DNA of 35,198 bases from Bacteroidota bacterium (GTDB lineage: Bacteria > Bacteroidota > Ignavibacteria > UBA10030 > UBA8401). The number at the start of each line of letters is the position of its first letter. The first letter of the stretch is position 1. The notes below the pieces were generated by a model. It made no database searches. It was not told the DNA's origin and saw only the letters and a list, made by a program, of their open reading frames with translations. Made by a program: the position numbers and the translations under genes. Below are positions 3,577 through 6,879 of the stretch, in pieces. Location: positions 1-35,198 of the forward strand of contig JAUXTU010000003.1 in NCBI GenBank assembly GCA_030679145.1, given 5' to 3'.

Positions 3577-3624
3577 CAACTTACTCGTTTAAAAGATACA
3601 ATACAATGACATACTTATGTCATT
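3577..3624 (-). promoter_or_regulatory. Palindromic operator plus promoter box upstream of the 3530 gene
   Basis: Plus-strand bases 3605-3624 read AATGACATACTTATGTCATT, a perfect 9-bp inverted repeat with a 2-base centre. On the minus strand exactly 16 bases follow, then ACGAGTAAGTTG (3588-3577), about 46 bases before the start codon. The same arrangement with the same spacing recurs at 5669-5716. TAAGTTG resembles the Bacteroidota -7 box (TAnnTTTG); if so, the palindrome centre is near -44, a usual position for an activator. The NarL-type regulator encoded next door is the likely binder (inference). Confidence 0.7.
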
Positions 3625-3645
3625 TTTGATATTTACTTTTCTGAA

Positions 3646-4275
3646 TTATAGTATAGTGTGTTTTAACGCTTTTGCGACAGCTTGAGACTTTGAATGAACA
3701 TGAAGTTTCTCATAGACATGCCGGATATGGTTCCGAACTGTATCGAGACTGATGAACAGTTTCTCCGCGATCATGTTGTAGTTCAATCCTTCGATGAGTT
3801 GATCGAGAATTTCCTTCTCTCTCGGTGTAAGCGAATAATTTTCTTTTTCCGGTGGGATCTGTTTTTTAAACATTTCAACGACTTGGCGTGCAATCATTGG
3901 TGTCATCGGCATACCTCCCGCAACAGCTTCTTCAATAGCAAGGAGTAATTTGGGCGGCGGAGTTTTTTTGAGAATGTAACCATTGGCACCCGCAACAATG
4001 GCATCGAAAATATTCTTATCATCATAAAAAACTGTCAGCATGATTACTTGTGTATCAGGATATTTTCGTTTGACAAGGCGCGCACCTTCGATCCCGGATT
4101 TTCCAGGAAGTCCGATGTCCATCAGTACAACATCGACCAAGGGAAGTTTCTTCATCGCTTCTTCTACTGAATCGTACTGACCGGAACAGAGAAATCCTTT
4201 CGTGTTCTGAAGGATGTTAAACAGTCCCTCACGGAAATCATTGTTGTCTTCTACTATAGCAACTCGAATAATCAT
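3646..4275 (-). CDS. NarL/FixJ-family response regulator
   Basis: 209 residues, the usual length of the family. The receiver domain occupies about 1-122: acidic pocket E9/D10, phosphoacceptor D53 (in LMDIGLPG), T81 (MLT) and K103/K104 (YILKK). A LuxR-type helix-turn-helix lies at about 147-207, with LTPREKEILDQL and the recognition helix around TVRNHIRHVYEKL. Its partner is almost certainly the DesK/NarX-like histidine kinase at 5707-6879, separated only by one outer-membrane protein gene. It lies 35 bases after that gene and is probably cotranscribed with it, so it may control its own synthesis through the palindrome at 5697. No obvious ribosome site before the ATG; the start is kept because it begins the receiver fold directly. 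Confidence 0.93.
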   Translation of the reverse strand: MIIRVAIVEDNNDFREGLFNILQNTKGFLCSGQYDSVEEAMKKLPLVDVVLMDIGLPGKSGIEGARLVKRKYPDTQVIMLTVFYDDKNIFDAIVAGANGYILKKTPPPKLLLAIEEAVAGGMPMTPMIARQVVEMFKKQIPPEKENYSLTPREKEILDQLIEGLNYNMIAEKLFISLDTVRNHIRHVYEKLHVHSKSQAVAKALKHTIL

Positions 4276-4310
4276 AAATTAATATTATCAATGTTATCAA
4301 GGGAATCGTA

Positions 4311-5612
4311 TTAACGACCAAACGATATTCCAAATGTTATACCAATGCTGCTGCCCACGAACGGATATGGCGCCCCACCAAACCGCGGTTTTGTTGGATC
4401 ACCACCGCTGGTTTCTGTATAACTTTTATCTTCTTCATATTCAACAATTTTATCTCTTTCAGTAAGTGTGCTTAATTGATCGGCACCGTCAATGGTATAT
4501 TTGGTGATTTCACTTCGCGTAATAAAAAATGAGACAAGCGTTGCTTTTGCTTGTATGAAAAATGTTACGTCCGGATTTATTGGAACATCAAATCCAAGAT
4601 AACCAACGTATGCTACCGGAATATTATTTGTTAATTTCATTTCTCGTTCAGCCGTTGACGCAGGACCGAATTGGGAAGCATTATTTGTTTGTTTCAGACC
4701 AATTGTCAGATTAGACTGAACTATAAACCCAGCACCTACACCGGCATACGGTTGTACATTTCCAATATCCGTTTTTAAGTGAAGCCCTGTCAATAACGGA
4801 ATAGTACTAAAATTTAATGTTTGGTCTGTTGTGCTAGAATATGAACTAGGCGGATTTGGCGGAAACGAGGAACTACTTGTATAACTTGATTTTGCAGTTG
4901 CACTTCCCCATGAATATCCCGTTTGTAAAAAAATGCCGGCTTGGTCAGTTAAATAATATATGAAATCTGCTTCGAACCGAATTCCTTCTCCGGCGGAAAT
5001 ATAAATGTCCTTCACATTATCATGCGATGTTGAATAACCTGTTCCATTATTAGATGATGTATAATCTTCACTCGTTATGGGAAGACCCTCTTTCGCAAAT
5101 CCATATCCCCCTGATATTCTAATCTCAAAGGAAGAACTTTTCAATGGACCATCAAGAATTGATGGAGGTCCCGCGGGTAGTGTTGTACTTTCAAGGATTC
5201 GTGTGGGAGGGGGATTCCATGATATCTCTGAACCTCCAACAATTTGGATCTTTGCTGGATCTTGTCCCATTACATAATTCCCCGCACCAAGCTCTTCATA
5301 ATGATTGATTTTTTCGGCAAGCATGAACAATGTCACTGTAGAATAATCCACTCTTGTAAACGAGATCTGACCATCATCACCGGTAATTTCAACTTTTGCG
5401 AAATATGTACTATCCGGCATGACATAGAAGGTTGCACTGACAAAATTTTTAATTGCCGGAAGAATATGATATTGTTCTCTTTCAGATTGATCGATTGATT
5501 CCCCTATAATATTGCTGATGATTATCTTACGAGAATCATTTTGTGCGTTTAGAGTAACAGCAAAAAGAATAAACAGGGAGAAAAAAATGGGGAATGGATG
5601 AAACGTTTTCAT
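4311..5612 (-). CDS. Outer-membrane beta-barrel protein
   Basis: 433 residues. Signal peptide 1-23 (MKTFHPFPIFFSLFILFAVT, ending LNAQ). Residues about 25-135 are a soluble domain (SATFYVMPDSTYFAKVEI, YSTVTLFMLAEKI) perhaps related to the small beta modules of the neighbouring envelope proteins. From about 160 to the end are alternating amphipathic strands separated by Ser/Thr/Asn-rich loops (FEIRISGGYGFA, GIFLQTGYSWGSA, PYAGVGAGFIVQS, SIGITFGISFG), as in OmpA/opacity-type barrels. A purine-rich GGAAGGG lies before the ATG. It sits between the histidine kinase and response regulator genes and has the palindromic control module at 5669-5716, so it is probably both a target and a companion of that system. 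Confidence 0.78.
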   Translation of the reverse strand: MKTFHPFPIFFSLFILFAVTLNAQNDSRKIIISNIIGESIDQSEREQYHILPAIKNFVSATFYVMPDSTYFAKVEITGDDGQISFTRVDYSTVTLFMLAEKINHYEELGAGNYVMGQDPAKIQIVGGSEISWNPPPTRILESTTLPAGPPSILDGPLKSSSFEIRISGGYGFAKEGLPITSEDYTSSNNGTGYSTSHDNVKDIYISAGEGIRFEADFIYYLTDQAGIFLQTGYSWGSATAKSSYTSSSSFPPNPPSSYSSTTDQTLNFSTIPLLTGLHLKTDIGNVQPYAGVGAGFIVQSNLTIGLKQTNNASQFGPASTAEREMKLTNNIPVAYVGYLGFDVPINPDVTFFIQAKATLVSFFITRSEITKYTIDGADQLSTLTERDKIVEYEEDKSYTETSGGDPTKPRFGGAPYPFVGSSIGITFGISFGR

Positions 5613-5668
5613 AACTGCCCTTCCGGTTGATGAACAGTAAAGTGTTTTGCGTAACGTGAGTTACGATA

Positions 5669-5716
5669 CAACTTATTCGTATAAAAAAAGAGATGCAATG
5701 ACACATTTATGTCATT
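5669..5716 (-). promoter_or_regulatory. Palindromic operator plus promoter box upstream of the 5612 gene
   Basis: Bases 5697-5716 read AATGACACATTTATGTCATT, the same 20-bp palindrome as at 3605-3624 with one mismatched pair. On the minus strand exactly 16 bases follow, then ACGAATAAGTTG (5680-5669). The TAA stop of the histidine kinase gene (5707-5709) lies inside the palindrome. The spacer sequences differ between the two copies while the two boxes are kept, which argues for selection rather than simple duplication. Confidence 0.72.
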
Positions 5717-6879
5717 TTCTTTGTGAGTTTCACTGTGGTTCCCTTTTCTATGTCAGAGTCAATCGTAAATTTGGCTTGAATCTCATTTGCACGCTTCTTC
5801 ATATTTCTTAATCCATGACCGCCCACTATTCTATTGCCAATCAGTCCGCTTTCAACGAAAAATCCGATACCATCATCTGCTATTGTCATTTCAAACAGAC
5901 CATTATTTATGGTAATAGAGATTCGTACAGTTTGAGCCTGAGAATGGTTAAGTACATTATTCAATGCTTCTTTGAAAATGAGAAATATATTCCGACGCAC
6001 ATCAACTGTCAATTCCCTTTCTGTACTACGATCCGGAATCTGAATATGATGACGAATCTCTTTTGCATTGCAGAGATCGATCGCAAGATTTTTTAAACGG
6101 TAAAGTAATTCAGTTAAAGAATCATGTTCCGGCGCGATTGACCAGACGATATCCCCCATTGCATCAACTGCCTCAAGAGAAAGAGAGCTCATTTTTTCAA
6201 TTGTCTCCAATACTTCACGAGGTATGTGCCCAAGCTGCCGTTTCAAACTTTCAGCGTAGAATGCAATACTGCTTAATGAAGATGCCACGTCGTCATGCAG
6301 GTCTCGCGCAATGTGCACCTGCATCATTCGTCTTTCTTCATCGAGCCGAGCATTTTCAACTACCTGCGCCATATTAATTGCAATAATAGCCAATAACCGT
6401 TGATCATCAGCAGTGAATATTCGTTCTTCAGAATTATAAATGGTGAGAACCCCTGTTAGATTCCCTTTGATCATCATCGGTGCACACAATAACGATTTAA
6501 CCGGTTCATCCCACCGGATGCGTTTGAAGTGAGGATTATTGTGCGGATCATTTAACAACAGCGGCTTTTTATTAAGAAGCATCCATCCTAACAATCCTTC
6601 ATTGAAATGGAATTCTTTTTTTTCGGTTGATGTTACGGCAATTCGAACAAGTGTTTTTGAAGGATCATCTTTGTTTTCATTAACAAGAGAAATAACCCCT
6701 TGTGCAGCATGAAATGCGGTCAACGCACGAAGAACTATCGTTTTCAAAATCTTATTTAGATCCGATGTGCCGGCGACCGCGCTGGCAAAATCGCTCAGGA
6801 TTGATAACTCTTCAACTGTGCGTTTCAGAGCTTCATTTTCTTCTACGATTCCTTTCCGATGTTTTTCTTGTTTGTTCAC
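5707..6879 (-). CDS. GAF-domain sensor histidine kinase (DesK/NarX-type, cytoplasmic)
   Basis: 390 residues, starting with GTG at 6879, which has AAGGA five bases upstream; no ATG fits. A short coiled coil (about 8-30) leads into a GAF domain (about 28-176). The HisKA_3 dimerisation region holds the phosphorylatable H195 in IARDLHDDVASSLSSIA. The HATPase domain has the N box at FKEALNNVLNH (about 302-312), the G1 box DDGIG (335-339) and the G2 box GGHGLRNM (353-360). No membrane helix is seen, so the signal is probably cytoplasmic, or relayed. It follows kinase A by only 9 bases and is likely cotranslated with it, which suggests that Ser/Thr kinase A and this two-component system work together (inference). 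Its last codons overlap the palindromic operator of the next gene. Confidence 0.92.
   Translation of the reverse strand: MNKQEKHRKGIVEENEALKRTVEELSILSDFASAVAGTSDLNKILKTIVLRALTAFHAAQGVISLVNENKDDPSKTLVRIAVTSTEKKEFHFNEGLLGWMLLNKKPLLLNDPHNNPHFKRIRWDEPVKSLLCAPMMIKGNLTGVLTIYNSEERIFTADDQRLLAIIAINMAQVVENARLDEERRMMQVHIARDLHDDVASSLSSIAFYAESLKRQLGHIPREVLETIEKMSSLSLEAVDAMGDIVWSIAPEHDSLTELLYRLKNLAIDLCNAKEIRHHIQIPDRSTERELTVDVRRNIFLIFKEALNNVLNHSQAQTVRISITINNGLFEMTIADDGIGFFVESGLIGNRIVGGHGLRNMKKRANEIQAKFTIDSDIEKGTTVKLTKKMT

Follow-up and report, generated by a model that had tools for sequence, protein, structure and literature searches.

Two 20-bp palindromes stand ahead of two genes for probable outer-membrane proteins in a contig of a Bacteroidota bacterium, and the genes around them include a response regulator and a histidine kinase. 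The question raised by this locus is whether the palindromes are binding sites of that regulator and, if so, how binding would act on transcription. In what follows the window is the whole stretch of DNA that was analysed (35,198 nucleotides), and the features of the locus are collected in Table 1.

Table 1. Operators, promoter elements and genes of the locus, in window coordinates
Feature	Position	Strand	Remark
Operator 1, 20-bp palindrome AATGACATAAGTATGTCATT (minus-strand reading)	3605..3624	-	between the regulator gene and P0001
Operator 2, palindrome AATGACATAAATGTGTCATT (minus-strand reading)	5697..5716	-	overlaps the kinase stop codon
ATTG, putative -33 element, operator 1	3604..3607	-	palindrome end plus the next G
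TAAGTTG, putative -7 element, operator 1	3577..3583	-	21 nt beyond the palindrome
ATTG, putative -33 element, operator 2 promoter	5696..5699	-	position and consensus across homologue sites
TAAGTTG, putative -7 element, operator 2 promoter	5669..5675	-	
P0001, 540 aa	1908..3530	-	first gene after operator 1; secreted/outer-membrane by eye
P0003, 209 aa, NarL/FixJ-type response regulator (Response_reg + GerE)	3646..4275	-	proposed binder
P0002, 433 aa	4311..5612	-	first gene after operator 2; secreted/outer-membrane by eye
P0004, 390 aa, GAF-HisKA_3-HATPase_c histidine kinase	5707..6879	-	presumed partner of P0003

The forward-strand letters are AATGACATACTTATGTCATT at the first palindrome and AATGACACATTTATGTCATT at the second, and on the minus strand the boxes ACGAGTAAGTTG (3577-3588) and ACGAATAAGTTG (5669-5680) follow after 16 bases, exactly as the first-pass annotation had described them. 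Each unit therefore reads palindrome, G, 20 nt and TAAGTTG on the minus strand. The 16-base spacing is present, and the constant distance is better stated as 21 nt from the palindrome end to TAnnTT; the spacers had been called unconserved, which does not hold for their first base, a G at all four copies of the palindrome in the genome.

The genes are ordered on the minus strand as kinase P0004, operator 2, P0002, regulator P0003, operator 1 and P0001, so that one gene, P0002, separates the HisKA_3-type kinase from the regulator. The kinase stop codon (5707-5709) lies within the operator 2 palindrome, and the regulator gene starts 35 nt past the P0002 stop. A NarL-type regulator and a histidine kinase had been read from the letters, and Pfam finds the corresponding domains in both proteins, with P0003 matching PF00072 (receiver, 6.5e-20) and PF00196 (LuxR-type GerE helix-turn-helix, 5.4e-18). 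P0001 and P0002 have no Pfam family at E 0.001 and none up to E 1 apart from one P0001 match at 0.64, far under the cut-off; by eye, their signal-like N-termini and strand-rich sequences indicate that they are probably outer-membrane proteins. The two-component system adjoins a dense array of eight large Ser/Thr protein kinase genes within 23 kb (6889-29582, minus strand), which have C-terminal PD40 propeller, TolB_N or TPR parts; a metallophosphoesterase gene lies inside this array, and genes for DUF885 and PD40 proteins lie upstream of it.

The palindrome AATGACANNNNNNTGTCATT occurs exactly four times in the 3.83 Mb genome, while its reversed (uncomplemented) control does not occur, so the many random copies that the first-pass annotation had named as evidence against a regulon are absent. 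The two copies reported for the window are there, and the genome total is four and not two. All four exact palindromes precede a gene on the same strand. The other two lie on contig 107 at a distance of 1.26 kb from each other and precede the genes for P0005, a protein with CarboxypepD_reg repeats and a T9SS sorting tail, and for P0006, a PD40 propeller protein with a lipoprotein-like start by eye. These two palindromes (L005 7878-7897 and 9138-9157) are identical, and their likeness extends, apart from a single difference, over about 16 more bases to one side; this suggests that the whole operator was duplicated. A genome-wide search for the core of the palindrome followed at 12-22 bases by TAAGTTG returned only the two places in the window. 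With up to 3 mismatches allowed, the looser pattern (palindrome, G, 20 nt, TANNTT) gave seven matches in the genome against one for the control. On the minus strand three of the four palindromes fit it exactly and the fourth (C107:12850-12896) departs from it at two positions, which both lie in the box; the remaining three matches, with 2-3 mismatches, are the contig-107 palindromes in reverse reading (two) and one place on contig 121.

The genome contains eight GerE matches above cut-off, and a scan of these eight loci found this palindrome at the P0003 locus only, and a weaker palindrome of different sequence near the contig 57 regulator. An extension of the regulon by two-mismatch sites was also tried, with 52 sites in the genome among the matches listed against 10 for the reversed control. 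Near-matches were read at six of 11 loci, chosen for likeness, and were five times AATGACATTGAT and once AATGACAGTGAT; because those read belong to a scattered repeat, the two-mismatch near-matches were not counted as operators. The AATGACATTGAT repeat is scattered over several G000 contigs (L008 1501, L009 143, L012 1501, L015 1501 and L017 1501), stands next to GCGGG stretches in three of the six places read and recurs among the two-mismatch matches.

Among 80 genomes, the exact palindrome is found in five, the own genome included, with one to four exact copies each. The best four P0003 matches in this set belong to G000 (100% identity), G017 (81%), G068 (70%) and G026 (67%), and the palindrome adjoins the regulator gene in all four. 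In G017 the kinase stop is again inside the palindrome, with the regulator gene next to it and no other gene in between; a second copy lies about 6 kb away, some 320 nt ahead of the start of a P0001 orthologue that runs on to another contig. In G026 the regulator gene and the next gene for a secreted protein are each preceded by a copy. The exact palindrome is also present at three close homologues outside the 80-genome set, G084, G086 and L075 (64%). The -7 box is poor at two of the first nine sites, C107:12877 and G017:1385. The fifth genome, G007, has a single unlinked copy (G007:C407:1950-1969), which is intergenic, precedes a gene with a signal-like start and is not followed by G. No response regulator was seen by eye among the open reading frames of the surrounding 9 kb, and the best P0003 homologue of G007 (56%) carries AATGATGC sites instead; the unlinked copy may be due to chance or be a relic.

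Relatives of the two outer-membrane proteins were also followed. P0002 has relatives in six of the other 79 genomes, and at the eight of nine loci outside the own genome that were scanned no upstream palindrome with the promoter layout was found, so they are not evidently under such control. The AATGACA palindrome is absent from the five scanned loci of P0001 relatives in G004, G007, G001 and G003, where one locus (L207) has almost no upstream DNA; the best regulator matches in these four genomes have 44-56% identity. G007, which has no close regulator orthologue, carries a tandem pair of P0001 relatives (G007:C112:1544-5161).

The flanks of further regulator homologues, about 150 bp before and 190 bp after the regulator gene, were scanned at 75 loci, which are 78 regulator loci (30, three and 45) without identical proteins; further homologues of the 80 genomes are not part of this set. 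A flanking 20-bp AAT...ATT palindrome, a search frame derived from the window motif itself, is present at 34 of the 75 loci against 4 for a mirror-repeat control, 7.5% of loci in base shuffles and a mean of 7.3 loci (maximum 14) in dinucleotide shuffles; at the other 41 the scanned flanks have none. When the AAT frame is dropped, palindromes with all 8 outer pairs are found at 23 loci, with 3 for the mirror control. The distant homologues have other 20-bp palindromes at the same positions, such as AATGACTC, AATGACCC, AATGATGC, AATCGCAT and AATAGAAC. The AATAGAAC palindromes belong to the Ala182 regulators of L158 (G068:C235) and L159 (G028:C43), and at L158 two good copies and a weaker third surround one regulator gene.

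The base next after the palindrome, which was not part of the search criterion, is G at 54 of 63 sites, a count in which probable chance matches (e.g. L045 and L166) were kept. The palindrome together with the following G is found at 32 loci, against a dinucleotide-shuffle mean of 1.4 and a maximum of 6 in 60 rounds. These 54 sites at 32 loci, of which a few may be due to chance, are the basis of the half-site and helix statistics given below. Nearly all G-followed upstream sites (24 of 26) stand 52-84 nt before the regulator start, and this position therefore suggests autoregulation. G-followed downstream sites were found at 25 loci, and the next frame has a signal-peptide-like start by eye in 21; the remaining four are masked (L040), unclear (L048), at a contig end (L151) or not secreted-looking (L182).

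The palindrome sequence follows the recognition helix of the regulator. The exact window palindrome is present at all seven loci whose helix reads DTVRNH(I/F)RH and at none of the 68 others, and in many homologues another helix goes with another palindrome at the same places, which lends support to the proposal that the sites form a regulon of the local two-component system. Up- and downstream half-sites of one locus agree (19 pairs, mean 0.605 of 5 differences versus 2.20 when permuted, P<=5e-5). Over these 32 loci, half-site distance rises with both protein distances, slightly more closely with that of the receiver (r 0.68) than with that of the helix (r 0.63), and these two are themselves intercorrelated (r 0.66); the partial correlation between half-site and helix with receiver distance removed is 0.32 (P=2e-4).

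When 55 protein positions were compared with 5 site positions, residue 182 scored second, third and fifth, with letters 4, 5 and 6. The top association is that of residue 175, which is Ile in 28 and Leu in 4 of the 32 loci, and for this reason association alone is no proof of contact. Letters 4-6 read GAC in 53 of 70 arms from Asn182 regulators; all 12 Ala182 arms have AGA or AGT, 16 of 22 Ser182 arms have CAC or CGC, and the 4 Thr182 arms are mixed. None of 12 Phe182 homologues has a G-followed palindrome. In regulators with Asn182, letters 7-8 are AT or AC in 22 of 22 arms when residues 178/185 are Asp/Arg, and TC or CC in 27 of 40 when they are Glu/Lys. On a tree of the receiver domains only, L043 and L044, which have Asn182 and GAC, are placed among Ser182 loci and away from the main Asn182 group, and this placement suggests that the Asn182-GAC pair arose more than once. 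Residues 181-182 of P0003 align with residues 182-183 of DevR/DosR, DevR being the second-best PDB match, and Lys182 and Asn183 of DosR contact bases (PMC4082495). Conservation and covariation together support a tie between the palindrome and this response regulator that goes beyond mere neighbourhood.

Where TAnnTT follows the palindrome, its distance is nearly constant. It stands at offset 21 in 18 of the 54 G-followed sites (shuffled mean 0.54, maximum 4), and within the scanned offsets 10-34 it is found elsewhere at 22 (five sites), 20 (two) and 16 (one). By single positions, +23 is A in 41, +26 is T in 40 and +27 is T in 47 of the 54 sites. The sigma-ABfr promoters of Bacteroidota have TTTG at about -33 and TAnnTTTG at -7 (PMC7366714). 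The homologue sites resemble them in part. Some have ATTG and TAnnTT 20 nt apart; the upstream element is ATTG and not TTTG, the putative -33 element is embedded in the operator, and the closing TG of TAnnTTTG is not conserved, with T at +28 in 17 and G at +29 in 9 of 54 sites. The proposal that TAAGTTG is the -7 box would fit the Bacteroidota element, and the box recurs as TAnnTT at the same spacing at some of the homologue loci. Taking the G as -33, the palindrome centre would be near -43.5, close to the -44 estimated at first. With the start position predicted, the palindrome has by its spacing the arrangement of a class II activator site, that is, a fixed distance and an overlap with the putative upstream promoter element. 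A sigma-70 style promoter scan gave 18 matches against a shuffled mean of 7.8, and none was used.

With a probability of about 0.85, judged from sequence comparison, the palindromes are operators of the local regulator P0003 that overlap the -33 element of a Bacteroidota-type promoter and most likely serve activation. Binding of P0003 to the palindrome is very likely, and activation is likely because the spacing is fixed. A P0003 dimer, for which the nearby GAF-HisKA_3 kinase is the presumed phosphate donor, would read AATGACAY in each half-site, would be centred near -43.5 over the -33 element of the promoter formed by ATTG, 20 nt and TAnnTT, and would most likely turn on transcription by contacting RNA polymerase. 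Operator 1 would drive P0001. Operator 2 would drive P0002 and, if the two genes share a transcript, also P0003, which would give positive feedback, and the two contig-107 operators would drive the protein with the T9SS tail and the PD40 propeller protein.

The overlap with the -33 element could also mean that P0003 is a repressor that binds the same site, blocks this element and shuts out polymerase. This reading is unlikely, since the spacing of TAnnTT is nearly exact among loci whose half-sites differ, which polymerase contact would need and repression would not, and since the -33 element consists of no more than ATTG, a shortness found at many promoters that depend on an activator. A terminator or an RNA hairpin at the gene end comes to mind as well, for both window palindromes follow or overlap a stop codon and their RNA can fold an 8-bp stem; yet the stem energies are ordinary (z -1.57 and -0.97), a terminator scan found nothing terminator-like at either palindrome, and the next base is G and not the beginning of a U run. 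Neither window palindrome has the G+C-rich stem followed by a U run of an intrinsic terminator, and the narrow range of distances between the upstream sites and the regulator start also argues against this explanation, which is the least probable of those considered.

Hardly more credible is that some other regulator, such as one of the CRP/FNR type, owns the palindrome and that P0003 lies near it by chance. CRP/FNR sites have the layout TGTGA-N6-TCACA, which the inner half-site spacing TGACA-N6-TGTCA resembles. CRP/FNR homologues exist in Ignavibacteria (PMC8510549). Against it, the palindrome co-occurs with one regulator and its helix, the half-sites covary with that helix, and one to four exact copies in each of the five palindrome-bearing genomes are few for a global regulator; no set of sites independent of one response regulator and its helix was found.

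Beyond the order, the full pattern with at most one mismatch was found in six of 395 genomes of the phylum, including the own genome and G026, and the reversed control gave none. In G419, which belongs to another class, AATGACAC palindromes flank both sides of a regulator with 56% identity and the helix ETVRNHARK, and neither is followed by G in gene direction. G227 has three operator-plus-promoter matches (C2:4781, C10:117138 and C10:166311), none with a P0003 homologue within about 1.5 kb, and related, imperfect palindromes flank two of its three regulators; a distal regulon is possible for these matches. The single one-mismatch matches of G214 and G370 have no such regulator next to them and look like chance.

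The assignment of the palindromes to P0003 places them among systems of a familiar kind. The DosR box is a 20-bp palindromic operator, as here. In class II activation by LuxR, the lux box is a 20-bp palindrome that lies over the upstream promoter element with its centre near -42 to -44, which is similar to the arrangement proposed for P0003; unlike LuxR, P0003 has a phosphorelay-type receiver and not a ligand-binding domain, and the promoter class differs. NarL/FixJ regulators such as DosR/DevR share the receiver and GerE domains, and residues 181-182 fall on the DosR base contacts (PMC4082495). They differ from the present system in the half-site, which is AATGACAY here, in the many relatives whose regulator gene is flanked by sites before and after it, in the outer triplet that with the G doubles as the putative Bacteroidota -33 element, and in the four exact sites of this genome. 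The same logic, by which a dimer that controls its own gene leaves an inverted repeat at the promoter, underlies Snowprint (PMC10858194), a method that predicts operators by looking for such repeats near genes that regulate themselves. Its benchmark families are TetR, LacI, MarR, IclR, GntR and a few others, and its main text has no occurrence of 'LuxR', 'NarL' or 'response regulator' (PMC10858194). A literature search of titles and abstract starts found no such operator or recognition code described and no response-regulator operator described from this group, and a search for NarL Val189/Lys192 was without any match. The new part is a clean natural series of regulator-operator pairs.

For the organism, whose group is known here mostly from metagenome assemblies, these results give an uncharacterised two-component system its probable operator, promoter geometry and small candidate regulon, and the same geometry at about thirty relatives provides a series for deriving the rules by which NarL-type proteins read DNA. 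It is moderately probable that many NarL-type regulators of the phylum form private modules of a regulator and secreted proteins, with their own adjoining operators, often on both sides, and one fixed promoter geometry, in which half-site letters 4-6 are largely set by residue 182 and letters 7-8 follow residues 178/185 when residue 182 is Asn. If this is true, a large regulator family would have a readable recognition code, and its operators would be predictable from protein sequence.
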